Assembly: GCF_900176205.1 (NCBI RefSeq)
Contig: NZ_LT859959.1
Span: 1,364,001 to 1,428,000, forward strand
Source of the DNA: Bradyrhizobium sp. ORS 285
Lineage (GTDB): Bacteria > Pseudomonadota > Alphaproteobacteria > Rhizobiales > Xanthobacteraceae
Direction: 5' to 3'
DNA: 64,000 nt
Positions 3,249-19,557 of the stretch are shown one piece after another (positions within the stretch are counted from its first letter, which is position 1; each line of letters begins with the position of its first letter). The position numbers were made by a program, and so were the translations under genes. A model generated the notes under the pieces. That model did no database searches and was not told the origin of the DNA. It saw only the letters and a program-made list of their open reading frames with translations.

Positions 3249-3335
3249 TTGATTCATCGGTCGATTCAGCTTGACCTTGCCCCTAGGGCTTAATCCAGTT
3301 TGAAGTTCGTTCTGGCCCCTAGAGAGGACCAGAGC

Positions 3336-3602: not shown

Positions 3603-3869
3603 CGCCCGCGGCGAAGCGGAAGGCTGTCGCACATCTCGTGGGCGTTCACGGGATGAGCGAACGGCGGGCGTGTAAAGCCATCGGCTGTTGCCGCATGACG
3701 GTCAGATACCAGACGAGCCGGGCCGATGATGCCGGGCTGCGGCAGCGCATGAGGGCGATAGCACATGAGCGCCGCCGCTTCGGCTATCGAAGCCTGCACG
3801 TCCTGCTCAGGCGACAGGGCTACCTGGTCAATCACAAGAAGCTGTTCCGGCTGTACCGGGAGGAACGGC
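3599..3869 (+). pseudogene. IS3-family OrfB transposase, truncated by IS66
   Basis: The frame starts VTPAAKRKAVAHLVGVHGM and continues through the HTH_21-type N-terminal region (RRACKAIGCCRMTVRYQTSR, RRFGYRSLHVLLRRQGYLVN) up to FRLYREER, where the IS66 end interrupts it. The whole DDE integrase core is missing, so no active OrfAB can be made from this copy. The same protein continues further in the fragments at 10812-11313 and 24211-25093, which shows what has been lost. Confidence 0.88.
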
Positions 3870-3927
3870 GTAACCCTCCGCCGGGGGCCGCCTTGGCAAT
3901 TTGGTGTTGATGCTGAGAACTGTCCTT

Positions 3928-4317
3928 ATGGACAGAGATAAGGACAGTGCCCGGATCGGGCGGCTTGAAGTGGTTGAGACGGGTCGGCGGCGACGCTGGT
4001 CTGAGGACGAGAAGCTCAGGATCGTGATGGAGAGCCTGCAGGGGAGCCGGCAGGTTTCGGCAACAGCCTGGCGGTACGGCATCTCACGTTCATTGCTTCT
4101 GAAGTGGCGGCGGCTGTTCCGCGCGGAACAGAATGAAGCTGGGCCGCGACTGGACTTCGTTCCGGCGACTGTGATCGCAGAGCCGGCCGTGCCGACCGGC
4201 GGCGGCGCGATTGAGATCGAGCTTGCAGCCGGAGCCAGAATGCGGATCACCGGCGCAGTCGATGAGGCGACGCTGAAGGCTGCCGTCGCGGCGTTGACGG
4301 ACGGGCGAACGCGATGA
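3928..4317 (+). CDS. tnpA: IS66 TnpA accessory protein
   Basis: TnpA is the small DNA-binding accessory protein of IS66 elements. From the ATG at 3928 it is 129 residues: MDRDKDSARIGRLEVVE, then RRRRWSEDEKLRIVMES and the helix-turn-helix QVSATAWRYGISRSLLLKWR, and an acidic tail with IEIELAAGARMRI. ATG codons at 3910 and a TTG at 3901 are alternative starts. It overlaps tnpB by 4 bases (ATGA). It differs clearly from the TnpA of copy B, whereas the TnpC proteins are close, supporting exchange of halves between two IS66 types. Confidence 0.85.
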   Translation: MDRDKDSARIGRLEVVETGRRRRWSEDEKLRIVMESLQGSRQVSATAWRYGISRSLLLKWRRLFRAEQNEAGPRLDFVPATVIAEPAVPTGGGAIEIELAAGARMRITGAVDEATLKAAVAALTDGRTR

Positions 4318-4641
4318 TCCCAATTCCGTCAGGGATACGCGTGTGGATCGCGACCGGCCACACCGACATGCGCCGTGGCATGCAGAGCCTGGCGCTTGGA
4401 GTCCAGGAGAGCCTGAAGCGCGACCCGCATGCCGGCGATCTCTACATCTTCCGCGGCCGTCGCGGCGATCTGGTCAAGATTCTCTGGCATGACGGGTTGG
4501 GTATGTCGCTGTACGCCAAGCGCCTGGATCGCGGCAGGTTCATCTGGCCTTCGGCGTCGGACGGCGCGGTGTCGATCTCGGCCGCGCAGATGGCTTACAT
4601 GCTCGAGGGCAATTAAAGATACCCATAGGAGCCACGATGAC

Positions 4642-5007
4642 GTGGCCGTTTGCGATGAGGTCGAGGTCGTCGACCCTCGCCATCCGCTCTACGGACGACG
4701 CTATCGCCTGATCTCGGTCGGCAAGGAATCGACCAAGCGCGGAGCGTGCAAGGAGCCTTTTGCGCGTGTACATTATCGATTCGGTCTCACGCTTCTTTTG
4801 CCGCTCGGGGTGACAAATCTTGAGCGGAATACCTTGTCGCGCGCCGCGCCGACCAAGCTGGACCTGGGCGCGCTGCAGGATCTCATCGCGTTGGCCGAAG
4901 AGAGCGAGGGCACATGCCCATCGAACCTCGACAGGTCTGGCGAAGCTTACCGGAAGCGCTCCGGCAAGCGATCGCGGAAGATCTCGGCCAAGTCATGCGG
5001 GAGGTGA
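4642..5007 (+). CDS. Small conserved-looking protein preceding the serine recombinase, function unknown
   Basis: Reading from a GTG at 4642 (AGGAG at 4626-4630) gives 121 residues, with VEVVDPRHPLYGRRYRLIS followed by KRGACKEPFARVHYRF and a hydrophobic GLTLLLPLGVT stretch; the C-terminal third is basic and may be degenerate. It ends 3 bases before the recombinase start, so it is likely co-transcribed and could be a recombination directionality factor or accessory protein, but that is inference. A second, overlapping frame from ATG 4914 (MPIEPRQVWRSLPEALRQAI) also looks protein-like and could be the real partner. I do not recognise a named family. Confidence 0.45.
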   Translation: MAVCDEVEVVDPRHPLYGRRYRLISVGKESTKRGACKEPFARVHYRFGLTLLLPLGVTNLERNTLSRAAPTKLDLGALQDLIALAEESEGTCPSNLDRSGEAYRKRSGKRSRKISAKSCGR

Positions 5008-5010
5008 GCG

Positions 5011-6744
5011 ATGGGCTCCGAACTCGTCAAACCGGATCACTTGGACCGCAGAGCAGTGGTGTATGTCCGGCAATCGACGCCGCACCAGGTGATCACAAAT
5101 CAAGAGAGCCTGAGGCTTCAATACGCTCTCTCACAGCGCGCCCGCGACCTCGGATGGCGCGAGGCCGACATCGATGTGATCGATAGTGATCTTGGACAGA
5201 GCGGCGCCGGGGCAGCTCACAGAAAGGGCTTCAATGATCTCGTCGCTCGCGTCACCCTTGGTGAGATCGGCCTCATTCTATCCGTCGACGTGACGCGCTT
5301 GGCGCGCAACTGTTCGGATTGGTACCCGTTACTCGACGTGTGCGGACATCGTCGCTGCCTGATCGCTGACCGTGATGGGATCTACGATCCCGGAACGCCG
5401 AATGGCCGTCTTCTGCTCGGATTGAAGGGCACGATCTCCGAGTTGGAGTTACACACGATCAGGAGCCGGATGACGACAGGGCTTCTGGCAAAAGCGGAAC
5501 GCGGCGAATTGGCTTTGCAGCTGCCGGCGGGACTCGCGCGGGATCCGTCCGGCGTGGTCACAAAAGATCCGAACATCGAGGTGCAACAGCGCTTGCTGTT
5601 GCTCTTCGAGACGTTCCTGAAGGTACGAACGTCTGCGCAGGTTATGCGGGTCCTCGTAGGCCGCGGGCTGGCGCTGCCTCGTCGCGATCGCCATGGGGAT
5701 CTGCGCTGGCAGCCCGCGACGGTATCGGCCGTGACGGCGATTCTCAGGAATCCGGCCTATGCAGGGGCCTTCGTCTATGGAAGGACTTGGCAGAAGCCGT
5801 CCAGGGTACCAGGGGAACGTCCACAGAAGTCTCCGCGTCGTGGGAAGGACTGGAGGATCATGGTGAAGGACAAGTACCCTGCCTATATCGATTGGGAGAC
5901 CTTCGAGAAGATCCAGGCCATGCTGTGCGACAACCGTGCTGAGTACCAGCATATCAAGAGCCGCGGCATTCCACGGGATGGAGCTGCCCTCCTGCACGGC
6001 ATCACCTATTGCGGCGAGTGCGGACACAAGATGGCCGTGCGCTACAAGGGCGGCAGTCAGTACGTCTGCAACCACCTGAAGATCCAGCGTGGTGCTCCGG
6101 AATGCCAGAATCTGCGTGCAGCTCCAATCGATATCCAGGTTGCTGCAGCATTCCTGGAAGCAGTGGCGCCGGCAGAGATCGACGCGTTATCGAAAGCCCG
6201 GAAAGCGCATCAACACTCTGAAAGAGCCCTCCGCCTTGCAGAAGAACAGCAGATCGAGAGGCTTCGGTATCAGGCATCCCTTGCGGAACGTCAGTTCAAT
6301 CGTGCCGATCCCGACAATCGATTGGTGACCGGCGAATTGGAGCGACGCTGGGAATCGGCCTTGTTGGATTTGCGCCGAGCCGAGGATGGGTTCGCACAAC
6401 GCAAGAGTCTCAAATCCAGCGAGCCAGCAGGTGTTCCTCCTGATCTTCGCGCCAAAGTCGTAGCCCTCGGAAATCGCCTTCCAGGGCTGTGGAACGATCC
6501 GGCGACGCGCAGAGACCAACGCAAAGCGCTTTTGCGGTGTCTCATCGATAAGGTTGTGTTGCGGCGATGCGAGCGCGACAAGGCTACGGTCCGTATCGTG
6601 TGGCGCGGCGGTGCAACGACAGAGCTCGTGGTGACGCTGCCCGTCAATGCTGTTACAGCCTTGCCCAGATATCGGGAAATGATCGAGCGCATCTGCACGC
6701 TTGCAACGAGGGGCGGTCCGACGATGAGATCGCGCTCATACTGA
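5011..6744 (+). CDS. Large serine recombinase (resolvase + recombinase + zinc ribbon)
   Basis: Site-specific recombinase of the large serine type, which cuts DNA with a serine nucleophile. Residues 1-165 form the resolvase domain: RAVVYVRQSTPHQV with the catalytic serine of RQST, and VDVTRLARN. Residues about 195-320 match the Recombinase domain (AYAGAFVYGRTW, YPAYIDWETFEKIQAML), followed by a zinc ribbon (ITYCGECGHKM ... YVCNH ... ECQNL) and a coiled-coil stretch near 395-445. The ATG has GGGAGGTGAGCG upstream. At 577 residues it is shorter than relatives of this type because a one-base loss near 6709 shifts the frame; the C-terminus continues in another frame. The catalytic and zinc-ribbon parts are intact. 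Confidence 0.85.
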   Translation: MGSELVKPDHLDRRAVVYVRQSTPHQVITNQESLRLQYALSQRARDLGWREADIDVIDSDLGQSGAGAAHRKGFNDLVARVTLGEIGLILSVDVTRLARNCSDWYPLLDVCGHRRCLIADRDGIYDPGTPNGRLLLGLKGTISELELHTIRSRMTTGLLAKAERGELALQLPAGLARDPSGVVTKDPNIEVQQRLLLLFETFLKVRTSAQVMRVLVGRGLALPRRDRHGDLRWQPATVSAVTAILRNPAYAGAFVYGRTWQKPSRVPGERPQKSPRRGKDWRIMVKDKYPAYIDWETFEKIQAMLCDNRAEYQHIKSRGIPRDGAALLHGITYCGECGHKMAVRYKGGSQYVCNHLKIQRGAPECQNLRAAPIDIQVAAAFLEAVAPAEIDALSKARKAHQHSERALRLAEEQQIERLRYQASLAERQFNRADPDNRLVTGELERRWESALLDLRRAEDGFAQRKSLKSSEPAGVPPDLRAKVVALGNRLPGLWNDPATRRDQRKALLRCLIDKVVLRRCERDKATVRIVWRGGATTELVVTLPVNAVTALPRYREMIERICTLATRGGPTMRSRSY

Positions 6745-7079
6745 CAACGGAAGGACATCACTCACCGTGGGAAACGGACAAAGTTATCCCGGCCACGGTG
6801 CAAGGCATTCGCCTCAAGAACCGTATAAAGATCCAGCGTCGCCAGACACGTTGGCCTGCGATCCCTGGTAGTCTCACCGTTACTAAATTGGCAGATCGCA
6901 TGCATATTACTGCCAAGTGGATCTACGTCCAGCTTCGCTCTGGACGTATTGTGACCACGCGTGAACACTCCGGCCGCTTCCTGTTCCCGGACAGCACGAA
7001 AGCTCTGAAAGCGGTTCGTCAATTGCGAGACCACCGTGTCGAGAAGATCGATTTGAGGGAGCATCATCATGAAAAGTAG
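6711..7079 (+). pseudogene. Displaced C-terminal part of the serine recombinase
   Basis: Immediately after the frame change the +1-type frame reads EGRSDDEIALILTTEGHHSP and continues to QLRDHRVEKIDLREHHHEK. It includes a helix-turn-helix-like segment (VTKLADRMHITAKWIYVQLR) typical of the C-terminus of this recombinase class. One inserted G at about 6709 (ACG-GAG-GGG instead of ACG-AGG-GGC) would join it to the upstream protein and give about 690 residues. Whether the shift abolishes activity is unknown. Confidence 0.7.
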
Positions 7080-8637
7080 GGGCATCAACAACAGCCCTCG
7101 ATCGAGGGCATCGACTGGAGACATCCGCAGGCAAGCTGGCGACCGCAAAGCGCGGGTTGAGCCAATAATCCTTCGGCTTTGGGCGTTTGGGGAGTCACAA
7201 TACCTTCGATCTGTGATTCACTGCGCTGTATGAATGCTGAGCGCGACGCCGGTCCCGATGACATAGCGGCCTTGAAAGAGGCGCTGGCAGCCGAGCGCGC
7301 CAGGGGTTTGGAAATTGCGGCGGAGCTGGCTGTCGCCCGCGCGAAAGCCTCGGAAGACAGCGCGCTGATCGCCCAGCAGAAGCTGCAGATCGCCAAGCTG
7401 CGGCATCAGATCTACGGACAACAGTCGGAGCGCTCGTCGCGGCTGATCGAGCAGTTGGCGCTGACCTTCGAGGAACTGGAAGTCGACGCCACCGAGGACG
7501 AGCTGTCGGCAGAGCAAGCCGCGGCCAGGACGACGACCGTCCGCGTATTTACGCGCAAGCGTGCGGAGCGCCAGACCTTCCCGGAGCATCTGCCGCGCGA
7601 GCGGGTTGTGATCGATCCGCCACCCGCGTGCGAGTGCTGCGGCGGCCATCGCCTGCGCAAGATCGGCGAGGACGTGACGCGGACGCTGGAGGCTGTGCCG
7701 CGGCAGTGGAAGGTTGTCGAGACGGTGCGGGAGAAGTTCTCCTGCCGTGACTGCGAGAAGATCAGCCAGGCGCCTGCGCCGTTCTACGCCGTGGCGCGGG
7801 GATGGGCTGGTCTGAGCTTTGTTGGCCATGATCATGTTCGAGAAGTTCGGCCAGCATCAGCCATTGAACCGCCAGGCCGAGCGTTACGCCTTGGAAGGCG
7901 TGCCGATCGCGCTGTCGACCATGGCGGATGCCGTTGGATCGGTCTGTGCGTCGCTGGAACCTCTGCTACGCCTAGTCGAATCCCACGTTCTGGCGGCCGA
8001 GCGCCTTCATGCCGATGACACGACCGTGCCGGTGCTGGCCAAGGGCAAGACCGATACGGGGAGATGCTGGATCTACGTCCGGGACGATCGGCCGTTTGGC
8101 GGCGCCGACCGCCGGCAGCGATGTTCTACTACTCCCGCGACCGCAGGGGCGAGCACCCGCAGACGCATCTGGCAGGCTATGCCGGCATCCTGCAGGCCGA
8201 TGCCTATGACGGGTATAACCAGCTCTATCTGGCGGAGCGCCAACCTGGAGCGATCCGCGAAGCGGCGTGTTGGGTACATGCCCGGCGCCCGTTCTTCGTC
8301 ATGGCCGACATCGACGAGAACGCGCGACGCAAGGCTTCCGGCAAGAAGGACATTCCGCTGTCGCCGATCGCGGTCGAGATGGTGCGACGGATCGATGCAT
8401 TGTTCGAGATCGAACGCTCCGTCAATGGCAGGAGCGCCGAGGAGCGCGTTCGGGTGCGGCAGGCGCTGAGCCAGCCTCTGGTCGAGGACCTGGAGGTCTA
8501 TATGCGTGAGCAACTCGCCAAACTGTCCCGTGGCCACGACCTCGCCAAGGCGTTCAACTACATCCTCAAGCGCTGCGGATCTCGCGCTCCGGCTTCGGAC
8601 CGAGCTCGAGCGCAACAAGCTCCGCTTCACCGCGTTC

Positions 8638-10064
8638 GGTCGTGTCCCCGGGCGTGGTGTAACTCGGTAGAGCAAAGCCGTCCGCCCGCGCGCTCCCCCA
8701 TAGCGCTGTAGCGGGTGGACGGCTTTGCGGTGGTCACCGGCGATTGCCCGGTAGGGTCGGGTTGCTGACACCAACCTGATTCGAGGAACCACCGATGACC
8801 GACGAGATGATGAACCTTCGCGCACTCGTGGAGAAGGCCCCGGACGCGGATCTTCTGCGCGAGATGATCGGCTTTGCAGCGCAGCGGTTGATGGAGATGG
8901 AAGTCGCCGGGCTGACCGGGGCGGCCTATGGCGAGAAGAGCTCCGAGCGTCTGGCGCAGCGCAACGGCTACCGTGACCGGACCTGGGAGACGCGGGCCGG
9001 TTCGGTCGAGCTGCGCGTTCCCAAGCTGCGCAAGGGAAGCTACTTCCCGGGCTTCCTGGAGCCGCGCCGGATGGCCGAGAAGGCGCTGACCGCCGTGATC
9101 CAGGAAGCCTACGTCCAGGGCGTCTCGACCCGTTCGGTCGACGACCTCGTGCAGGCGATGGGGATGAGCGGCATCTCCAAGAGCCAGGTGAGCCGGCTCT
9201 GTGGCGAGATCGACGACAAGGTGAAGGCCTTTCTCGCCCGTCCGATCGAAGGCGACTGGCCGTATCTGTGGATCGACGCCACCTACGTGAAGGTGCGCCA
9301 GAACGGGCGCATCGTCTCGGTCGCGGTTATCGTCGCGATCGGCGTCAACAGCGACGGCCGACGCGAGGTGCTGGGCATGGACGTCGGCCCGTCCGAGGCC
9401 GAGACGTTCTGGACCGCGTTCCTGCGCAAGCTCACACGCCGTGGACTGCGTGGCGTGCAGCTCGTGATCTCGGATGCTCACGAGGGCATCAAGGCCACCG
9501 TCGCCAAGGTGCTCAATGCCACCTGGCAGCGTTGTCGCGTTCACTTCATGCGCAACGCTCTCGCTCATGCCGGTAAGAGCGGGCGCCGCGTGGTCTCCGC
9601 CTTCATCGCCACGGCCTTTGCCCAGGACGACGCCGAGGCAGCCAAGGCGCAATGGCGCAAGGTCGCCGACCAGATCCGTCCCAACGTGCCCAAGCTCGCC
9701 GCCCTCATGGATGAGGCCGAGCCTGACGTGCTCGCCTATATGAGCTTCCCGGCACAGCACCGCGCCAAGCTGCACTCGACCAATCCAATCGAGAGGGTCA
9801 ATGGCGAGATCAAGCGCCGCACCGAGGTCGTCGGCATCTTCCCAAACGAGGAAGCAATCGTCCGTCTCGTCGGTGCGATCCTGCTCGAGCAGAACGACGA
9901 GTGGGCCGTCCAGCGCGCCCGCTACATGACTCTGGAAACCATCGCGCCTTTGAGCGATGATCCCATTGCTGGCCTGCCCGCCGTGGCAGGCTGACCAGCT
10001 CGGCCCGCACCGGAATCGCCCGGTGATCCACCATGCCAGCTACACCACTCTATGGGACACGATC
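8638..10064 (+). mobile_element. IS256-family element, copy A, complete
   Basis: 1,427 bases with terminal inverted repeats GGTCGTGTCCCCGGGCG and (reverse complement of the right end) GATCGTGTCCC, and more internal identity around GTGGTGTA. Flanked by an 8-bp target duplication CCGCGTTC at 8630-8637 and 10065-10072. It carries one intact transposase gene. Its sister copy at 22416-23839 has the same ends and its own target duplication. Confidence 0.93.
8795..9994 (+). CDS. IS256-family (Mutator-type) transposase
   Basis: 399-residue DDE transposase of the IS256/MULE class. The N-terminal part ([52 protein letters not shown]) is family-typical, the first catalytic aspartate is in [11 protein letters not shown], the second in [13 protein letters not shown] and the glutamate in [15 protein letters not shown]. 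Start ATG with GAGGAACC upstream. Full length and uninterrupted, so probably active. It is nearly identical in structure to the transposase at 22573-23772 (differences scattered), so the two copies are relatives but not a fresh duplication. Confidence 0.95.
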
Positions 10065-10356
10065 CCGCGTTCCTCGATGACGGGCGGATCTGCCTCTCGA
10101 ACAATGCCGCGGAGCGCGGTCTGAGAGGCATCGCTCTCGGTCGAAAATCCTGGCTGTTCTGCGGCTCCGATCGCGGAGGTCGGCGCGCGGCGGCCATGTA
10201 CAGCCTGATCGTCACGGCCAAAATGAACGGAATCGATCCGCAAGCCTGGCTGACCGATGTCATTGACCGGATTGCCGCTCACCCGTCCCAACAGCTCGAC
10301 GAACTGCTGCTCTGGAACTGGACGCCTCAGGCCGCAGCGCTCTCCACCCGAGCGGC

Positions 10357-10578
10357 ATGACCACGCACGTCAACAAAGTTCACCACGTCACCACCATCGC
10401 CAAGGTTGCCCAGGACCTCGGTGAAGATGAAGAATGGTTGCACGACGTCGCCAGCGAATTGGACATCGAGGATGGCGTCATCTGGGTCTACGGCGCTGGT
10501 GACGATGGCGTCATGGCCTTGACCGACTTCGGGATCGACAACCTGATCGAGCTTGTCAAAGCGCGTCGGCAGCTCTGA
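10357..10578 (+). CDS. Fourth IS66-linked frame, small acidic protein of unknown function
   Basis: 73-residue acidic protein beginning MTTHVNKVHHVTTIAKVAQD, with LGEDEEWLHDVASELDIEDG and VIWVYGAGDDGVMALTDFGI. Its ATG overlaps the tnpC stop (ATGA), so it is coupled to tnpC. The same frame follows tnpC in copy B at 12478-12721 (there frameshifted), which shows that it belongs to this IS66 type rather than to the flank. It lies before the right terminal repeat at 10638. Role unknown; a regulator or antidote-like passenger is conceivable but not shown. Confidence 0.65.
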   Translation: MTTHVNKVHHVTTIAKVAQDLGEDEEWLHDVASELDIEDGVIWVYGAGDDGVMALTDFGIDNLIELVKARRQL

Positions 10579-10638
10579 AATCTCTTTCCAGATGACGCCG
10601 CAAACCGGCACCCCCTGCGGCCTACGGCGGATGCTTAC

Positions 10639-10811
10639 CTTGCGACGCTTCTTGCCACGAAAAACTGACCTCAAATCCATGACGCCAGCCGCCATCAGAC
10701 AACGCGTCCACCGCCTCAACCATACCCCGCGCAAGTGTCTGGACTTCCAGACACCCGCCGAGGCATTCTCAAAACTCAAATCAACCGTTGCACTTCAAAC
10801 GTGAGTCCATC
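10639..10811 (+). pseudogene. 3' part of an IS30-family transposase, torn from its 5' part at 15.3-16.1 kb
   Basis: Directly behind the IS66 right end the frame reads RLRRFLPRKTDLKSMTPAAI and ends AFSKLKSTVALQT at a stop at 10802-10804, the standard C-terminus of IS30 transposases (RLNHTPRKCLDFQTPAEAF). The N-terminal part ends in GRLRR at 15269-15276 on the other strand. Both break points carry the same 8 bases CTTGCGAC, the target duplication of an IS66. The terminal segment to about 10811 contains an inverted repeat with AAGTGCAAC and CTCACG, matching the other IS30 end near 16158. Confidence 0.88.
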
Positions 10812-11313
10812 AGGCCAAATTCGGCGGAATGGACGTCTCGGAGGTCAAGCGGCTGAAGACGCTGGAGGACGAGAACACGCGGCTCAAGCGGCTGCTGGCG
10901 GATGCCCTGCTGGACAATGCCGCCCTGAAGGATCTCCTGGGAAAGAAGTGGTGACGCCCGCGGCGAAGCGGAAGGCTGTCGTACATCTCGTGGGCGTTCA
11001 CGGGATGAGCAATCGGCGGGCGTGTAAAGCCGTCGGCTGTTGCCGCATGACGGTCAGATATCAGACGAGCCGGGCCGATGATGCCGGGCTGCGGCAGCGC
11101 ATGAGGGCGATCGCCCATGAGCGCCGCCGCTTCGGCTATCGTCGCCTGCACGTCCTACTCAGGCGGGAGGCCTACCTGGTCAATCACAAGATGCTGTTCC
11201 GGCTGTACCGGGAGGAACGGCTCACGGTGCGCCGCAGAGGTGGCCGCAAGCGGGCCCTCGGCACACGTGCGCCGATGACGGTGCCGCTGCCATACTCGGG
11301 CAAGACCCATTAG
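10812..11313 (+). pseudogene. IS3 fragment: end of orfA and start of orfB
   Basis: Continues the IS3 orfA exactly where the fragment at 16159-16351 stops (WKA | KFGGMDVSEVKRLKTLED), the break being the IS30 insertion point with AGGCC at both edges. orfA ends LLGKKW; orfB follows from a GTG with VTPAAKRKAVVHLVGVHGM and runs to LTVRRRGGRKRALGTRAPM, then is cut off near 11290 before the catalytic core. No right terminal repeat. Not functional. Confidence 0.85.
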
Positions 11314-11674
11314 AAGCCATAGTTGATACGCTAGCTATTGGACGAAACTAGCATTGATTCTTCTCGCATCACATTTGCGGGCCGTCAGACCAAGCATGAA
11401 CTACACAGTATTGGAACGTACTTTTATACCGCGCAGCATACCATGGCGCAGACCCCACTCCGAATGCCCGCCCGTAGAACACCGCCAAGGTTCAGCTTTA
11501 AGTCCAAGACAAAAGAGCGTACATATACTTCATTTGATGCAGACGCTGTCCAAATATTGCGAGCGGCCCTCAGATAAAAGGAACTTCTTATCGTCGATAA
11601 TGCACCTTCCTACAAGCGGTATGATATGCATTTTTGGAAAGCCCCCCCCGCTCTGCACACTATGGAAAGCTCTC
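11314..11674. other. Upstream region of the FkbM methyltransferase, no certain gene
   Basis: AT-richer than the surroundings. The methyltransferase frame stays open upstream to 11354, but the extension has no domain-like composition. I looked for a nod box (ATC-N9-GAT repeats) and for a tts box and found no convincing match. It contains a C8 run at 11643-11650. Confidence 0.4.
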
Positions 11675-12322
11675 ATGTCGTCAGTAGAAGTACATAAGGA
11701 CATCCTATCCCTTCTGAAAAAGCCCAATCCGGTTATCCTAGATATCGGCTGCAATGACGGAACTGATACGCTCGCGTTCCTCGATTTGTGCCCGCAATGC
11801 AAGCTCTACTGTTTCGAGCCAGATCCCCGAGCGATCGCTCGCTTTAAAAGAAAGCTGGGCAAATCCCTCGATAAAGTGGAACTTTTTGAAGTCGCAATTA
11901 GCGACCGGAATGGGACAATCGACTTTCACCCCAGCAATGCGGACGGGGATGCGAAGAATTGGGATCTATCAGGTTCAATACGCCGTCCGAAGAACCATTT
12001 GATCGAATATGATTGGGTTCGGTTTGAACATCCCTTCTCGGTTAAAACGCGTCGGCTGGACGACTGGAGCCGCGAAGTCCAGCTAGGTGAAGTCGACTTG
12101 ATCTGGATGGACGTTCAAGGAGCCGAAGCTGACGTCATCGCCGGCGGGATGCGGACCATGAGGTACTCGCGTTTCATCTACACCGAATATAGCGACCGCG
12201 AACTCTATGAAGGTCAGCCGACCCTGCAAGCCATTCTGGGGTTATTGCCATCATTTGAAGTAACGGTTAACTACCCCCGCACAGCAGAAGGTGACGTGTT
12301 GCTGAGGAACAGACAAATGTAG
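11675..12322 (+). CDS. FkbM-family SAM methyltransferase, possible NoeI
   Basis: From the ATG at 11675 the protein is 215 residues. SAM-binding motif I is VILDIGCNDGTDT (residues 20-32), with the acidic FEPDPRA block after it, DLSGSIRRPKNHL in the middle, VDLIWMDVQGAEADVIAGG as motif IV-like segment and YTEYSDRELYEGQPTLQAIL near the end, all as in compact FkbM methyltransferases that O-methylate sugars. In rhizobia NoeI is an FkbM-type enzyme that 2-O-methylates the fucose of Nod factor, which would suit this island, but I cannot confirm orthology. The open frame extends upstream to 11354. It is stranded between an IS3 remnant and an IS256 remnant and lies in a segment that was probably inverted. 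Confidence 0.75.
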   Translation: MSSVEVHKDILSLLKKPNPVILDIGCNDGTDTLAFLDLCPQCKLYCFEPDPRAIARFKRKLGKSLDKVELFEVAISDRNGTIDFHPSNADGDAKNWDLSGSIRRPKNHLIEYDWVRFEHPFSVKTRRLDDWSREVQLGEVDLIWMDVQGAEADVIAGGMRTMRYSRFIYTEYSDRELYEGQPTLQAILGLLPSFEVTVNYPRTAEGDVLLRNRQM

Positions 12323-12345
12323 CATGCTGCCGATTTTGGCCGTCC

Positions 12346-12443
12346 AGGGCATCAAGGCCACCGTCGCCTAGGTGCTCAATGCCACCTGGCAGCGTTGTCG
12401 CGTTCACTTCATGCGCAACGCTCTCGCTCATGCCGGTAAGAGC
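12346..12443 (+). pseudogene. Remnant of an IS256 transposase gene
   Basis: About 98 bases match the middle of the IS256 transposase (GIKATVA ... [20 protein letters not shown] region, compare 9485-9582), with AAG changed to the stop TAG. It ends at GGTAAGAGC, where the IS66 right end begins at 12444. So IS66 copy B's right end was inserted in an IS256 copy, the rest of which is gone. Confidence 0.85.
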
Positions 12444-12477
12444 GTAAGCACCCGGCGTAGGCCGCAGTCTGACTATA

Positions 12478-12721
12478 TTATCTGGATTGCCGGCGTTTGA
12501 GCAATCCTTGGTTCTCCTTGTGCATTCGAACTTGTTCGATCAGATTTTCGACGCCCGCGTTGGTGAAGGCCTGGACGCCATCTTCTCCGACGCCATAGAC
12601 CCAGACCACGCCGTCCTCGATCTCCATCTCGTTGGCCACGTCGATCAGCCAGCCTTCATCTTCCCCGAGGTTTCGCGACCTGGGTGAGGGTGGTGACGTG
12701 ATGAACCTTGTTGACGTGCAT
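12478..12721 (-). pseudogene. Fourth IS66-linked frame, frameshifted copy
   Basis: Starts 2 bases after the tnpC stop with MHVNKVHHVTT and, after the loss of one base near 12680, continues DEGWLIDVANEMEIEDGVVW and VYGVGEDGVQAFTNAGVENL, homologous to the 73-residue protein at 10357-10578. It ends at 12478. The parallel position in both IS66 copies marks it as part of the element. Confidence 0.7.
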
Positions 12722-12723
12722 GG

Positions 12724-14373
12724 CTATGCCGCTCGAGCGGAGAGCGCTGATGCCGGTGTCCATTTCCAGGGCAGCAATTCGTCCAGCCGGTGAGCCGGGT
12801 GAGAGGCGATGCGCGCGAGGACATCGGCGAGCCAGGCCTGCGGATCGATGCCGTTCATTTTGGCGGTGACGATCAGGCTGTACATCGCAGCTGCGCGCCG
12901 GCCGCCGCGATCAGACCCGCAGAAGAGCCAGGATTTTCGACCTAGGGCGATGCCTCGCAGACCGCGCTCGGCGGCATTGTTGGAGAGGCACACACGACCG
13001 TCATCGAGGAACAGCGTGAAGCTCGGCCATCGCTTCAGCACGTAATTGAATGCCTTGGCAAGGTCGTGCCCCCGGGCGAGCTTGGCGAGTTGCTCTTGCA
13101 TGTAGAGCCGCAGGTCTTCGGTCAAAGGCCGACTGAGCGTCTGCCGTGCTTCGAGACGCTCCTGCGCGCTTTTGCCATTGATGGAACGCTCGATCTCGAA
13201 CAACGCATCGATCCGGCGCACGACCTCGATTGCGATCGGAGAAAGCGGGATCTCCTTCTTGCCCGCAGCCTTGCGGCGCGCATTCTCCTCCAGATCGGCC
13301 ATGGCAAAGAACGGGCGCCGCGCATGCGCCCAGCACGACGCCTCGTGGATCGGTCCAGGGCCGCGTCCAGCCAGATAGAGCTGGTTATAGCCGTCATAGG
13401 CGTCGGCCTGCAGGATGCCGGTATACCGCGCCAGATGCGCCTGCGGATGCTCGCCCTTGCGATCACGCGAGTAGTAGAACATCGCTGCCGGCGGGTCCGC
13501 ACCACCGAACGGCCGGTCGTCCCGGACATAGATCCAGCACCGCCCCGTGTCAGTCTTTCCCTTGGCCAGCACCGGCACGGTCGTATCGTCGGCATGAAGG
13601 CGCTCGGCCGTCATGACATGCGCTTCAACCAGGCGCAGCAGCGGGTCCAGCGACGCACAGACCGACCCCACGGCATCCGCCATGGTCGAGAGCGCTATCG
13701 GCACGCCCTCCAGCGCGTAGCGCTCGGCCTGGCGGTTCAAGGGCTGATGCTGACCGAACTTCTCGAACATGATCATCGCCAGCAGGCTCGGCCCGGCCCA
13801 TCCCCGCGCCACGGCATGGAACGGCGCCGGCGCCTGGCTGATCTTCTCGCAGTCCCGGCAGGAGAACTTCTCCCGCCCCGTCTCGATCACCTTCCATTGG
13901 CGCGGCACCACCTCCAGCGTCCGCGTCACGTCCTCGCCGAGCTTGCGCAGCCGCTGGCTGCCGCAGCATTCGCAAGCCGCCGGCGGCTCGATCACCACCC
14001 GCTCGCGGGGCAGATGTTCGGGGAAGGTTTGTCGCTCGGTGCGCTTGCGCGTGAAGGCGCGGACCGTGCTGGTCTTCGCCGCGGCGCGTTCCGCCGCAAG
14101 CTCGTCCTCGGTGGCGCCAGCTTCCAGCTCTTCGAACGTCAGCGCCAGTTGTTCGAGCAGGCGTGATGAACGCTCCGACCGCTGCCCGTAAATCTGATGC
14201 CTCAGCTTGGCGATCTGCAGCTTCTGGGACGCGATCAGGGCTTCGTCTTCCGATGCCTTGGCTCGGGCAGCCGCAAGCTCGGCAGCGACCTCCAATCCCT
14301 TCGCGCGCTCGGCCCCCAACGCCTGTTTCAGGGCGACGACGTCATCCGGTCCAGCATCGCAATCAGCTTTCAT
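12724..14373 (-). CDS. tnpC: IS66 TnpC transposase, intact
   Basis: 549-residue DDE transposase. An N-terminal coiled-coil (ALKQALGAERAKGLEVAAEL) and LRHQIYGQRSERSSRLLEQL are followed by a zinc-finger-like CECCGSQRLRKLGEDVTRTL and CRDCEK, then the transposase core with LHADDTTVPVLAKGKT, YVRDDRPFGG, LQADAYDGYNQLY and CWAHARRPFF, and the tail SNNAAERGLRGIALGRKSWL. Length and motifs are complete, so it is probably active and could supply transposase to the broken copy A. Confidence 0.95.
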   Translation of the reverse strand: MKADCDAGPDDVVALKQALGAERAKGLEVAAELAAARAKASEDEALIASQKLQIAKLRHQIYGQRSERSSRLLEQLALTFEELEAGATEDELAAERAAAKTSTVRAFTRKRTERQTFPEHLPRERVVIEPPAACECCGSQRLRKLGEDVTRTLEVVPRQWKVIETGREKFSCRDCEKISQAPAPFHAVARGWAGPSLLAMIMFEKFGQHQPLNRQAERYALEGVPIALSTMADAVGSVCASLDPLLRLVEAHVMTAERLHADDTTVPVLAKGKTDTGRCWIYVRDDRPFGGADPPAAMFYYSRDRKGEHPQAHLARYTGILQADAYDGYNQLYLAGRGPGPIHEASCWAHARRPFFAMADLEENARRKAAGKKEIPLSPIAIEVVRRIDALFEIERSINGKSAQERLEARQTLSRPLTEDLRLYMQEQLAKLARGHDLAKAFNYVLKRWPSFTLFLDDGRVCLSNNAAERGLRGIALGRKSWLFCGSDRGGRRAAAMYSLIVTAKMNGIDPQAWLADVLARIASHPAHRLDELLPWKWTPASALSARAA

Positions 14374-14442
14374 GCGACGTAGTGAATCACAGATCAGGCC
14401 GGTTGGAACTCCCTAAATACCGGAATCCGCAACTATCTCTGC

Positions 14443-14790
14443 TCAGCCTGCGCTTTGTGGCCGCCATGTCAGCTGCGGATTCCTCCAATCGATCGCCTCA
14501 AGCATGTAGGCCATCTGCGCGGCCGAGATCGACACCGCGCCATTGGACACCGAAGGCCAGATGAACTTTCCTCGGTCGAGGCGCTTGGCGTAGAGCGACA
14601 AGCCGATCCCGTCATGCCACAGGATCTTGACCAGATCCCCGCGACGGCCGCGGAAGATGTAGAGATCGCCGGCGTGGGGATCTCGCTTCAAAATCTCCTG
14701 GACCATCAGGGCCAGGCTCTGCATGCCACGGCGCATGTCCGTGTGGCCGGTCGCAATCCAGACCTTGACGCCGCTCGGGATCGGAATCAT
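14443..14790 (-). CDS. tnpB: IS66 TnpB accessory protein
   Basis: 115 residues, MIPIPSGVKVWIATGHTDMR ... DLYIFRGRRGDLVKILWHDG ... YMLEAIDWRNPQLTWRPQSA, the complete IS66 Orf2-type protein. It overlaps tnpA by 4 bases (ATGA) and precedes tnpC by about 70 bases. Used here as reference to identify the split copy at 4314-7160. Confidence 0.93.
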   Translation of the reverse strand: MIPIPSGVKVWIATGHTDMRRGMQSLALMVQEILKRDPHAGDLYIFRGRRGDLVKILWHDGIGLSLYAKRLDRGKFIWPSVSNGAVSISAAQMAYMLEAIDWRNPQLTWRPQSAG

Positions 14791-15182
14791 CGCGGCCTCA
14801 AAAGGTCGAGAATGCGCCGAAGTGCCTCGGTGTCTACGTCGCGGTCGACGCGCACGCAGCAGTCGTCCAGTTCGATCTCGATCTTTCCGGCCCGCATGCT
14901 CGGTGCGGCACGCGATGGCGACGGTGGTGATGGCACCCTCGTCAAGTCGTCAGCCTGCGACGACACGATGGCGACAGGAACGATAGCCGGCACAGCCTCG
15001 GCACCCAGCCGGCCCTGCCGCGCCTGCCGGCGCCAGGTGAACAGCAGGCTCTGAGCCACCCCATGCCGCCGGGCAACTCCGCAGACGGTCTGCCCGGACT
15101 GCATCGTCTCCTCGATCAGACGAACCTTATCCTTATAACTCCATCGACGCCGCCGTTCGGCGCCCAAAACTTCCATCTGCAT
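14787..15182 (-). CDS. tnpA: IS66 TnpA accessory protein
   Basis: 131 residues beginning MQMEVLGAERRRRWSYKDKV, with a helix-turn-helix VCGVARRHGVAQSLLFTWRR and a C-terminal acidic segment GKIEIELDDCCVRVDRDV. It belongs to the IS66 Orf1/IS3-like HTH group and differs from the TnpA of copy A, although the TnpB and TnpC partners are close. Confidence 0.88.
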   Translation of the reverse strand: MQMEVLGAERRRRWSYKDKVRLIEETMQSGQTVCGVARRHGVAQSLLFTWRRQARQGRLGAEAVPAIVPVAIVSSQADDLTRVPSPPSPSRAAPSMRAGKIEIELDDCCVRVDRDVDTEALRRILDLLRPR

Positions 15183-15268
15183 CGCCGCATGACCTCAAGG
15201 CTGGACTTAAGGCCATATCCTTAGGGTGCCGGTCACGCCGAACAAGGCGGCCTACGCCGGAGCGATAC

Positions 15269-16158
15269 GTCGCAAGCGACCGATCGAGTTTTCCGCGCCT
15301 CCCTTTTGCCAAGAGCTGTGTGGATCGCAGAAGAAGGTTGGAACGCCCAGTTTTTTGTGGAGCCTGTGATGCTCTGCGAACTCGGTTCCGTTGTCGAAGC
15401 TGACGGTTTTCGCATCACCTGAGGAAGCTTGCGGAGTTGTCGGGCGATCACTTGAGCGGTGAGGAGCGCCTTTCGGTCAGGAAGGTGCTGAACGATACTG
15501 AAGCGGGTTTGCCGTTCGTGCAGGACGAGCAGGCCCTGACCATAGCTGGCGAACAGCATGAAGTCGGCCTCCCAATGGCCCGGCTCCCGGCGGCTCTCCA
15601 CCTCAGCAGGGCGCTCGCTGATGGGGCGGCGCTGCTTGATGAAGCTGGCGGGGCTCCCGCTTGGCCGCCTGCGACGTCCTCGCCTGAGCTTATGGCGTGG
15701 TAGCAGACGATGCCAATAATCCTTCTGAGCCGTCCGATGATAGATGAAGCGATAGATCGACTCATGGCTGATGATGACGCGACCATGCTCTCGCGCCAGC
15801 CGGCCAGCGACTTGCTCTGGCGAATGTCCCATCGCAAGGCTTTCGCCGACGAGCTTGCGCAGGTCCGGCTGGCGCGCCAATTTGAAGCGACCATCCCACT
15901 TGCGCCGACGCTCGGCCAATTGCTGAGCTCGGACAGGTTCATAGCCTCCCTTCCAAACCCTCGTGGATTGCGAGTTGCGGCGCAGTTCCCGACTGATCGT
16001 CGAACGCGCTCGGTCGAGCGCAAGCGCTATCTCGTTTTGAGATTTGCCGTCCGCATGCAGACGATAAATCTCGATACGCTCCCTAAGGCTGAGCTGGCCG
16101 TAACATTGTCCCATCGCCACAACACCCTAACAGGTGTTGCACTTGTGTCGTGAGCTTA
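15269..16158 (-). pseudogene. 5' part of an IS30-family transposase, cut by IS66
   Basis: Starts MAMGQCYGQLSLRERIEIYR at 16120 and carries the IS30 helix-turn-helix (KSQNEIALALDRARSTISRE) and the start of the DDE core (GHWEADFMLFASYGQGLLVL). Near 15420 a frameshift diverts it; in the other frame VSFDNGTEFAEHH (second catalytic motif) and SWQKGGAENSIGRLRR follow. At 15268 IS66 copy B begins. The C-terminus is at 10639-10804 on the opposite strand. The left terminal repeat TAAGCTCACGACACAAGTGC ends at 16158. Confidence 0.9.
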
Positions 16159-16351
16159 GGCCTTCCACTTGTAAATGCTGGCGTCGCTCACGCCATGCTT
16201 GCGGCACAGATCGGCGACCGCAACGCCAGCCTCGTGCTCCTTCAAAATCCCGATGATCTGCTCTTCCCTAAAGCGGCTGCGCTTCATGCTCTGGTCCTCT
16301 CTAGGGGCCAGAACGAACTTCGAACTGGATTAAGCCCTAGGGGCAAGGTCA
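16159..16351 (-). pseudogene. IS3 fragment: left end and N-terminus of orfA
   Basis: Left inverted repeat TGACCTTGCCCCTAGGG begins at 16351 (minus strand). orfA starts at 16287, MKRSRFREEQIIGILKEHEA, and runs through the helix-turn-helix to SIYKWKA, where IS30 interrupts it at AGGCC. The remainder is at 10812-11313. Joining 16159 to 10817 restores KWKAKFGGMDV without loss. Confidence 0.88.
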
Positions 16352-16558: not shown

Positions 16559-18628
16559 TCATAGGGTGAGGCCGTGCTCATTGAGAACCTTGTCTCTAAG
16601 AGCCCCCTTGATCTCGCGTGCGATCTCTTTGCGAATAGCGGGACCTAACTCGCGCTTGGCGTCTTCAACCAAGTCAGCTTCAGCCCCGGTCAGGCCTTGG
16701 TCGGCCAGCTGTTGCTGCAGCCGGTTATCGAACTCTGTTTCCATTGCAGCAATAAGCTGGTTCTGAGCCATAGCGTGGTCTTCGGGGGCGATGTGACTCA
16801 CGACGTCATCCCAAGGTTGCCAGTCCAGCGCCAAATAGTCGGCGAATTCCGCCACTTCTCGGTCCCGCACGGTAGCTTCTGCGCTGTCAACGTCAGCGTC
16901 GGTCACGCCGGAAACCGCAAAAAAGCGCATGTTCGGTGCGACGTGTTGCAGCCCAAGTCGCTCGCGGAGCCTATTTTGATAGGCAAGGAAGACCTCGATA
17001 GCGTCAATATCTTGGACGCTGTCGACCGAGCCTAGTGAGTGAACCTTATCGCGCGCAATTCTCTCCAGCGCATCCAGGCGGAACATGACCCGGCCCAATT
17101 CAACCAGATCTGGAAAACGGTCATTGCTTTTATAGACGCCGTTTTTGACGTCGGCGATGAGGCGTGCGGTCTGCATGCCGTTCCAGGTCAAAGTCCTGCG
17201 ATCCTCGCAGCTCTCGTTGGCGTCGAGGGCCAGCTCAAAGTAGCGCGTACGTAATTCCGGGTCTTTCGCCGCTTGGCGCAGATCATTGGCCACCGAAAGC
17301 CGGAATTCTTCGTTCTCAGCGTTCACGGAGTCGAACAGTCTGCCAAGGAAGAGCGCGTATTCCTGGGCGCCCGGCTCTTCAGCAACGTCCTTCCAAGCTG
17401 TCAGCACCTCTTCATCGCCCTCTTGTTGGTTGCCCCGGAGCCAATTTGAGACCGTTTCAATGAAATCATATTCCTGTTCATCGTCGGTCCCAGACAATTC
17501 ACTTTCGTCATTGTACGAATAGTAGACGGTCGGACCGCCATAGCCTTCGGCTTGTAGGGCTGCCTGCAGGTCCCTGAGCACCTGTTCAGGCAGAGGATTA
17601 TCGTCCAGAATTACACTGTCATTATCGGAAAATTGCGTTAGCAGGTCGTCCGGTAGACTCGACAATTGGTTTTGGCCGACGTCGAGACGCACCAGCGAAG
17701 CAGGCAGTTGCTGCGGCAGACGTGTTAGTTGGTTTTCGCTGGCGTAGAGGAACTCGAGCATGGTGGGAAGGACCTCCGGTAGATTTGTCAATTGATTGTG
17801 GCTGACGTTAAGAGTCTCCAGTGAGGCAGGGAGCACCTCAGGCAGTTCTTGCAACTCATTGTGGTGTAGGTCGAGAAACTCGAGCTCGGCAGGTATGACC
17901 GCCGGCAGGCTCCGCAGCCGGTTGGAGCTCGCGTCGAGAAATCTCAGCTCGGTCGGGAGTACGGGCAGGGTTGTCAGCTGATTGCCCCTCACGTCGAGAA
18001 CGGAAAGTGTAGCAGGCAGATGCTGCGGCAGACGCGTCAGTTGGTTTCCGCTGGCGTTGAGGAACTCGAGTGTGGTGGGAAGGGCTTCCGGTAGATTCGC
18101 TAATTGATTGTCGCTCACGCGAAGATACTGCAGTGAGGCAGGGAGCAACTCAGGCAGTTCCTGCAACTCATTGTGGTTGAGGTCGAGGAATGTCAGCTCG
18201 GTCGGGAGTGCGGGCAGGGTTGTCAGCTGATTGCCCCTGACGTCAAGACGCATTAGCGAAGCGGGCAGGCTATCGGGCAGAGTGGTCAGCCGATTGAAGG
18301 GCACGTCAAGTTGAACGATAGCGCTCGGAAGTCTAGGCAGGCTAGTAAGGAACAGCGATTCAAGATTCAGCCAAACGTTCTCGCCGAGAGCATTCACTCG
18401 GCGCACCGCTTCATCCCGATCCTCAAGTATGCCCGCCTCCGGTTCAGCAGCCCAGTCTTCAAGCGCCTCGTTGTTGGCACCTGCGTCGGCGGAGGGCGCG
18501 CAGTTTGCGTGGCCTGTAACGACCGCGTTCCACTGCGCCGCCGCTCCGTTTTGTCCGCCCTCTTGTCCTGAAGACTCAGGAGGGATGCCTGCGCCGGGCT
18601 GTACCTGTCCTGTCTCGAATGGATTCAT
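16559..18628 (-). CDS. nopM: NopM-type type III effector, leucine-rich-repeat E3 ubiquitin ligase
   Basis: Secreted effector predicted to ubiquitinate host proteins. From the ATG at 18628 (AAGGAAGG just upstream) it is 689 residues. Residues 1-100 are a polar, Gly/Ala/Glu-rich secretion and translocation region. Residues about 102-331 hold eleven leucine-rich repeats of the bacterial LPX type (LDVRGNQLTTLP). Residues about 390-689 form the NEL domain, with the catalytic cysteine at residue 474 in the motif ESCEDR (CxD). Known rhizobial NopM proteins are shorter (about 550); the extra length is in the repeats. A tts box lies 68 bases upstream, so TtsI probably controls it. The longer open frame starting at 19003 is not supported. 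It is the only intact symbiotic cargo near the island end. Confidence 0.92.
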   Translation of the reverse strand: MNPFETGQVQPGAGIPPESSGQEGGQNGAAAQWNAVVTGHANCAPSADAGANNEALEDWAAEPEAGILEDRDEAVRRVNALGENVWLNLESLFLTSLPRLPSAIVQLDVPFNRLTTLPDSLPASLMRLDVRGNQLTTLPALPTELTFLDLNHNELQELPELLPASLQYLRVSDNQLANLPEALPTTLEFLNASGNQLTRLPQHLPATLSVLDVRGNQLTTLPVLPTELRFLDASSNRLRSLPAVIPAELEFLDLHHNELQELPEVLPASLETLNVSHNQLTNLPEVLPTMLEFLYASENQLTRLPQQLPASLVRLDVGQNQLSSLPDDLLTQFSDNDSVILDDNPLPEQVLRDLQAALQAEGYGGPTVYYSYNDESELSGTDDEQEYDFIETVSNWLRGNQQEGDEEVLTAWKDVAEEPGAQEYALFLGRLFDSVNAENEEFRLSVANDLRQAAKDPELRTRYFELALDANESCEDRRTLTWNGMQTARLIADVKNGVYKSNDRFPDLVELGRVMFRLDALERIARDKVHSLGSVDSVQDIDAIEVFLAYQNRLRERLGLQHVAPNMRFFAVSGVTDADVDSAEATVRDREVAEFADYLALDWQPWDDVVSHIAPEDHAMAQNQLIAAMETEFDNRLQQQLADQGLTGAEADLVEDAKRELGPAIRKEIAREIKGALRDKVLNEHGLTL

Positions 18629-18695
18629 CTTACCTTCCTTTGCAAAACTAGCTAAACTCGGTCCCTGGTGACTTATTCTGGAACGTAATATACTC

Positions 18696-18713
18696 AGCTG
18701 TTGATAAGCTGAC
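18696..18713 (-). promoter_or_regulatory. tts box upstream of nopM
   Basis: Minus strand GTCAGCTTATCAACAGCT, which agrees with the rhizobial consensus GTCAGCTTNTCGAAAGCT at 15 of 17 defined positions. It ends 68 bases before the nopM start and is in the right orientation. Binding by TtsI is inferred from the consensus. Confidence 0.85.
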
Positions 18714-19557
18714 AGACCGTTGACCGTGGATCGCAACGATGCCGAGGTCGCGAAGATGTGGCAGGACGAGCGACGACGGCCACGCCGTTGATGGCGTCGG
18801 CGATGAAGTCGCCGACAGTTGATGCAGTTGGGGTATACGTGGACATCGTCCTTGTCGACGTGCTGGCGCGCCGATTCGCGGTGAAGTAGATCCAGCAGAG
18901 CCCCCAGCGGATCCCGGGGCTGATCTTTTCCTGAGCCCGGCGCACTAGGCTTCGTGCCTGATGAGCGGCGGTGCTTCGCGCGGCGAGCTTCGATCTTCCG
19001 CATTGTGACCGGACCCGAGTTGCCTGCGCTCGACGCTCACACCACAAGTCGACGCCCTTGGTCAGGCCAGACTTTCGTCCGGGTACTTTCGGCTGTCGAG
19101 CTGAGGGCCGCCTTCAGTTAGGCAACGCATTTCTGGCATTGCTGGTGGGACGAGACGCTGTGGCGGGCGGCGTTCAGCTGCTGCCGGTCGAGTTCAAGAA
19201 TGCTCTTCGCGCGAGGACCTGATTGCTCTCCTGGACGAAGGCTCGCCGGACCTCATCGTTGGTGCCCTCGCTCGGCGGCTTCTCGCGCTTGTTGATTTAC
19301 CTCGGCCGCGCCCGCATTCGCATATAGCTTAAGCAGAAGCCGGCCTAGCGTCCAGGCGACAGCTCCCTCGTCGGCAGGACGTCCTCTGGTGCCTCCGCGT
19401 ACCGCGTCTCGGCGTAGAGTTCGGCCGCCCGCTTGCGCGCGTCCGAGATCGAGAGGAACTGGGGACGATGCGCTCGCAAATCGCCGAGAACACGCTTCGT
19501 CTTAGAGACCGCAACGACCATTTGGTAGTCCCGTCTCGGACGCGGACGTCACATAAC
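18714..19557. other. 844 bases of degenerate sequence between nopM and IS21
   Basis: No intact gene. On the minus strand a coding-like stretch at about 19350-19525 reads SKTKRVLGDLRAHRPQFLSI and KRAAELYAETRYAEAPEDVL before a stop; its upstream part may lie beyond the IS21 at 22241-22407. I do not recognise the family. The remainder (18714-19340) contains scattered open frames in both directions with no recognised motif. Confidence 0.45.

Follow-up and report, generated by a model that had tools for sequence, protein, structure and literature searches.

We analysed a 64-kb stretch of DNA from Bradyrhizobium sp. ORS 285 (bases 1364001-1428000 of its single-contig 7.8-Mb genome; this whole stretch is the window below, and positions are counted from its first base), which starts with nodU-nodI-nodJ-like genes and contains many insertion sequences (ISs). 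It is very likely that a single reciprocal crossover between two inverted and diverged copies of IS66 elements, here called A and B, inverted the segment between them together with a noeI-like methyltransferase gene. We favor a single reciprocal crossover for two reasons. Each copy combines parts of two IS66 families, X and Y, in reciprocal fashion, and both change family at the same interval. Moreover, the 8-bp duplication made by the Y element at its target is divided between A and B in the window, while matching duplications flank all 12 sister Y copies that were fetched from elsewhere in the genome. An inversion between these two copies had already been proposed in an earlier note made from the letters of the stretch alone, and these observations bear it out.

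Copy A (3870..10638, plus strand) is bounded by the tips GTAACCCTCC on the left and GGATGCTTAC on the right and is interrupted by two other elements; its left tip at 3870 is much further left than described in the earlier note. Copy B (12444..15268, minus strand) is 2825 bp long and encodes tnpA (14787-15182), tnpB (14443-14790) and tnpC (12724-14373), all on the minus strand. Domain scans detected PF03050, PF13817, PF13007, PF13005 and NF033517 in its tnpC, PF05717 (TnpB_IS66) in its tnpB and PF01527 (HTH_Tnp_1) in the frame at the tnpA position. In copy A, tnpB was recognized by the same PF05717 domain (TnpB_IS66 at 4314-4613) and tnpC by DNA similarity only. Both copies belong to the IS66 family, as seen from the tnpA/tnpB/tnpC genes with the IS66 tnpC domain set and from 8-bp target duplications, the duplication length that defines IS66 elements.

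Using copy B as a query against its own genome, we found at least 34 similar stretches (40 of 196 candidates were scored) and fetched 17 IS66 places, which fall into the two families: Y (L001-L012) and X (L013-L017), about 82-83% alike in tnpC. With L013 and L016 as X references and L001, L002, L004, L005 and L006 as Y references, 222 clean diagnostic sites were defined in the 3' part of the elements. The earlier note had suggested aligning tnpC of both copies to locate a crossover, and this comparison, run together with the same-genome sister copies, revealed a switch at the same homologous place in A and B. Copy A carries the X letter at 123 of 129 sites left of the crossover and the Y letter at 91 of 93 sites right of it, and copy B is its mirror image, with Y at 129/129 and X at 93/93 sites, so that A has 8 stray sites and B none. 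In A, the last X site is 10216 and the solid Y run starts at 10252; in B, the last Y site is 12853 and the first X site 12829. Both copies thus change family within the same 35-bp interval (10217..10251 on the plus strand in A, homologous to 12830..12864 on the minus strand in B), that is, from 10216 to 10252 in A and from 12865 to 12829 in B. Site 10228 is Y-like in both copies, which could reflect either a tract of repair or variation already present in the parent.

Whole-sequence comparisons gave the same picture. The left part of B is 97.5-98.4% identical to the 12 Y copies, and its right end is close to X (98.3% to L016, 97.5% to L013, 96.8% to L017 and, over a shorter stretch, 91.5% to L014) and only 77-80% identical to Y. 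Conversely, A resembles X at its left end (98.2% to L013, 92.4% to L014 and L015) and in its tnpC (97.8% to L013 and L015, 98.8% to L014), and Y at its right end. Three copies left out of the site definition were also scored where letters were present: L008 has Y at 129/129 sites on the left and 49/59 on the right, L014 has X at 123/129 and 44/59, and L017 has X at 65/68 on the right and is mixed at 10 left sites near its cut-off end. L008 and L014, which score lower on the right, also have different right ends. Among the Y copies, seven (L003 and L007-L012) group together by a shorter right end (about 2.69 versus 2.83 kb), and their duplications still match. When the exchange was undone on paper, by joining 15268-12853 of B to 10229-10638 of A, the resulting 2826-bp element aligned end to end with L001 at 99.43% identity and with L002, L004, L005 and L006 at 98.3-98.6%, as compared to 97.0% over 2733 bp for unmodified B against L001; L001 is also the sister copy nearest to each of the two Y pieces by whole-sequence identity.

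The 8-bp word CTTGCGAC occurs twice in the 64 kb, at 10639-10646 (plus) and 15269-15276 (minus), and nowhere else; since about four copies would be expected by chance in the window, the word alone is no proof. Both occurrences, however, abut an IS66 tip exactly, 10638 (right tip of A) and 15268 (left tip of B), in line with the earlier note, which had placed both next to an IS66 end, and beyond each of them lies the complementary half of one IS30. According to word search and tip flanks, the plus-strand word is the right copy of the Y target duplication and the start of the C-terminal IS30 half, and the minus-strand word is the left copy and the end of the N-terminal half. All 12 fetched Y sister copies have a matching flanking duplication (11 exact 8-mers, and a 7-mer at L002), whereas in the window it is divided between the left of B and the right of A.

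The N-terminal IS30 half (15269..16158, minus) was recognized by the NCBIfam model transpos_IS30 and by alignment, and the C-terminal half (10639..10811, plus) is 82.7% identical over 173 nt to a congener locus, L119, where it is continuous with the N-terminal half. A search of the 7.8-Mb genome gave a single match for each half (for the N-terminal half, 40 of 66 first-look candidates were scored; for the C-terminal half, searched alone, 14 of 14). When re-joined with one CTTGCGAC kept, so that its ends are 16158 and 10811, the IS30 aligned with the uninterrupted IS30 of L119 over 1051 nt at 82.2% identity with one gap, and with L120 (81.5%, 7 gaps) and L121 (80.8%, 3 gaps), in agreement with the division of the transposase that had been read from the sequence. 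The additional claim that joining the halves restores the IS30 frame is right at the join but does not hold throughout: the N-terminal half is one nucleotide short near 15411 relative to L119, so that the re-joined element would still be frameshifted. The surrounding IS3 is split likewise, as had been noted too, into a 5' part (16159..16351, minus) and a 3' part (10812..11290, plus, truncated at 11290), both delimited by alignment to an IS3 copy. It re-closes at the 5-bp repeat AGGCC (16159-16163 on the minus strand, 10812-10816 on the plus strand), giving an ungapped 667-nt match of 96.4% to another IS3 copy of the same genome.

Altogether, the locus displays hybrid IS66 elements, a split target duplication and a split IS30 and IS3. 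The most coherent history is that a Y element inserted into an IS30 that already sat in an IS3, a nesting indicated by the nested repeats at the insertion points, and that an oppositely oriented X element was located close by. X and Y would then have undergone homologous recombination in the 35-bp interval near the tnpC 3' end, presumably with the help of RecA and in a single step, and swapped their right ends. Since A is on the plus and B on the minus strand, so that two IS66 copies flank the segment in opposite orientation, one crossover inverts what lies between them. The 2.6 kb between the crossover points (10252..12829, as delimited by the diagnostic sites and the tip flanks) would have been turned in this exchange, and comprise the right end of Y, the C-terminal IS30 half, the 3' part of the IS3, noeI, an IS256 fragment and the right end of X.

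We then weighed this crossover against other ways of arriving at the same order. Inverted copies and a split target duplication are also the outcome of replicative events, which are known for IS6-type elements, and intramolecular replicative transposition of one IS66 could in principle have made the inversion while leaving two inverted copies of the same element. Yet, instead of representing the same element twice, A and B are reciprocal hybrids of families that differ at the 222 scored 3' sites, and the family change sits in tnpC rather than at the tips, so the hybrid structure contradicts this explanation and we give it practically no chance. Gene conversion alone is rejected as well, since it does not move the flanking IS30 and IS3 halves. 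An artificial order produced by reads crossed between the two IS66 copies must be considered in a genome where at least 34 stretches resemble copy B and can mislead assemblers; this is nevertheless highly improbable, because the assembly is one 7.8-Mb contig, about one base in five or six differs between X and Y, with a longest identical A/B run of 35 bp, and the error would need to be reciprocal at the same place.

More serious, if still unlikely, is a history in several steps, in which a series of rearrangements, via other X copies or a duplicated locus for instance, parted the halves and deletions afterwards produced today's order, and which is compatible with the crossover itself. It would fit with the right flank of X, which is the same IS256 flank as at the X copy L016, with the X duplication, for which no partner was found in the genome, and with the direction of noeI, which suggests an earlier event; but these extra events concern X and noeI, the exchange between A and B needs only one crossover, and each IS30 half has its single genome match.

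Several observations weigh against the crossover that we prefer, or against its being the whole story. L001 is among the copies that defined the Y sites, so that the 99.4% identity of the restored element depends in part on the choice of sites. In the four sister X/Y pairs compared, no identical run in the crossover interval exceeds 20 bp, which is short for efficient recombination, and longer identical A/B runs, up to 35 bp, are located elsewhere. An uninverted order was not found: the IS30-IS3-noeI arrangement is covered by none of the listed matches from 265 genomes of the genus (two candidates scored per genome). Contrary to that of Y, the target duplication of X is not exchanged between the copies: GGAACGGC (3862..3869, plus), identified by flank comparison inside another IS3 copy as the presumed left duplication of X, stands left of A, as against GCTCTTAC right of B. 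A search of the genome for partners of either X flank, with an exact 14-mer and with an 18-letter pattern allowing one mismatch, returned none, and therefore at least one further rearrangement at X is needed, be it a separate event, a further exchange or a deletion. Finally, the direction of noeI agrees with that of other nodIJ-noeI loci now and not before the event.

Two observations on X copies stand beside these points. The right tip of X has the same IS256 flank in the window (12346-12444) and at the distant copy L016, with different left flanks, and X copies may thus have exchanged ends. L013 and L017 (genome positions 1228303-1231135 and 1216009-1216261) could represent a second split IS66 duplication, CTCACGCC and CTCACGCA in IS3 parts; the 8-mers differ by one base and the IS3 parts in identity (97% versus 90%), and another X-mediated rearrangement, about 12 kb long, is possible there.

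The gene carried by the inverted segment (11678..12322, plus) is an open 214-amino-acid frame with an FkbM domain (PF05050, TIGR01444), 68.7% identical over its full length to NoeI of Sinorhizobium fredii NGR234; judged by this similarity, it looks like a noeI-type gene for a Nod-factor fucose 2-O-methyltransferase. The nodI and nodJ genes at the start of the window match named NGR234 genes as well, and the gene before them is one that we take to be nodU. On the NGR234 plasmid pNGR234a (NC_000914), noeI also lies downstream of nodIJ in the same direction, but the order there is nodI-nodJ-nolO-noeI-noeE, whereas nodJ and noeI are 8.9 kb apart in the window, with mostly mobile elements between them.

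To compare with relatives, as the earlier note had suggested, we took the best 80 of 138 noeI loci (flanks of at most 10 kb; matches above 200 nt), among which the uninverted order was not seen, just as in the listed matches of the 265 genus genomes; noeI (at most 81% identity) and the IS3 match separately. When NGR234 was added, nodIJ and noeI were within 10 kb of each other in 12 of 81 loci, with noeI downstream of nodIJ and in the same direction in 11 of the 12, a small and distant sample in which several of the same-direction loci are near-identical pairs. The two are opposed in the remaining one, L109 of Rhizobium ecuadorense, where an IS66-like stretch (7006-9398, 68%) without IS30 lies directly downstream of noeI. 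The Ensifer loci L094 and L117 share the order nodIJ, noeI and then an opposite-strand NEL-effector-like gene. In our window, a NEL/LRR effector-like gene is found at 16559-19003; 16969-18970 has a 97.6% identical counterpart at genome 1345000-1347001, about 34 kb further left, which is cut off where the fetched stretch ends.

In the window, noeI is now co-directed with nodIJ, and if the inversion between A and B happened, noeI was opposed to nodIJ before the exchange. The earlier note was right that the FkbM methyltransferase segment was flipped, as the hybrid copies and the split duplication indicate, but it did not see that the present direction is the common one. Probably, an earlier rearrangement turned noeI away or brought it in, and the present inversion restored the common direction; the oppositely oriented IS3 copies at 3272 and 16351 might have been the agent of such a previous turn or move. 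The case for the inversion is stronger than this argument on the direction of noeI, because none of the nearest noeI relatives (77-82% identity, L038-L066) has nodIJ within its 10-kb flanks. That different IS pairs turned the segment repeatedly, and that the A/B repeats still flip it at a low rate, with both orientations coexisting in culture and Nod-factor methylation varying with the reach of upstream nod transcription, is a speculation to which we would attach very little weight.

We also scanned for nod boxes with a consensus (maximum score 41, cut-off 32), which may miss diverged boxes, as the best score in the NGR234 stretch was 30. Of 79 related loci (the flank of the 80th was too short), 21 have a box of at least 32/41 in the 2 kb upstream of noeI, and none was recognizable with this consensus in the window, where the best score was 24/41 anywhere and 23/41 upstream of noeI. 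The missing box is not attributable to the inversion, since 15 loci tried likewise scored at most 25. The stretch just upstream of noeI (11291-11650), which adjoins the truncated IS3 at 11290, matches only itself in its own genome, and the matches of relatives start at 11651 or later.

Two other elements interrupt copy A. An IS256 (8638..10064, plus) lies in its X part between the two copies of an 8-bp duplication, CCGCGTTC (8630-8637 and 10065-10072). It first seemed to coincide with the change from X to Y in A and was considered as the maker of the junction, but CCGCGTTC on both sides, X-type sequence beyond the IS256 and the uninterrupted sequence of L013 at this place excluded that candidate; the IS256 is a separate insertion. 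A 99-bp IS256 fragment (12346..12444, plus), 99% identical to 9483-9581, also stands against the right tip of X. The second element (4612..7101, plus; 2490 bp) carries Resolvase and Recombinase domains of a serine recombinase, and is absent from the corresponding site in L013; its integration site is a CGAGGGCA core where IS66 tnpB ends. At genome 1348566-1351055, a 100% identical copy occupies this gene position in an IS66 of a different family. A relative of 80% identity, found in another genome (L147), likewise sits in an IS66 tnpB tail, while a fourth (L148) is not at that site; this serine-recombinase element may target IS66.

Rearrangements of this kind are known. On Bradyrhizobium symbiosis islands, resident IS copies were described to give deletions and duplications by homologous recombination (PMC8692435). 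The case resembles ours in that resident copies recombine without the need for transposition and that target duplicates can be traced through the event, but it involves direct copies or fragments of the same IS, whereas inverted copies of two diverged IS66 families would have produced an inversion here. For B. septentrionale and B. quebecense, whose genomes are IS-rich too, inverted and fragmented nod/nif clusters were described (PMC8374602), but no IS pair or crossover point is named in the passages of that report that we consulted. Among the titles and beginnings of abstracts listed, we found no report of the present locus. It is then a well-resolved new case of a known kind of event, notable for its diverged partners and for a crossover placed within 35 bp.

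The locus preserves an unusually complete fossil record of one rearrangement, in which the same 35-bp crossover is pointed to by nested elements, an 8-bp duplication and two hybrid IS66 copies. The case indicates that recombination on a symbiosis island is possible between IS copies of only about 82-83% similarity, and predictions of rearrangements that are limited to identical copies may therefore undercount them. The gene involved, moreover, probably shapes the nodulation signal.

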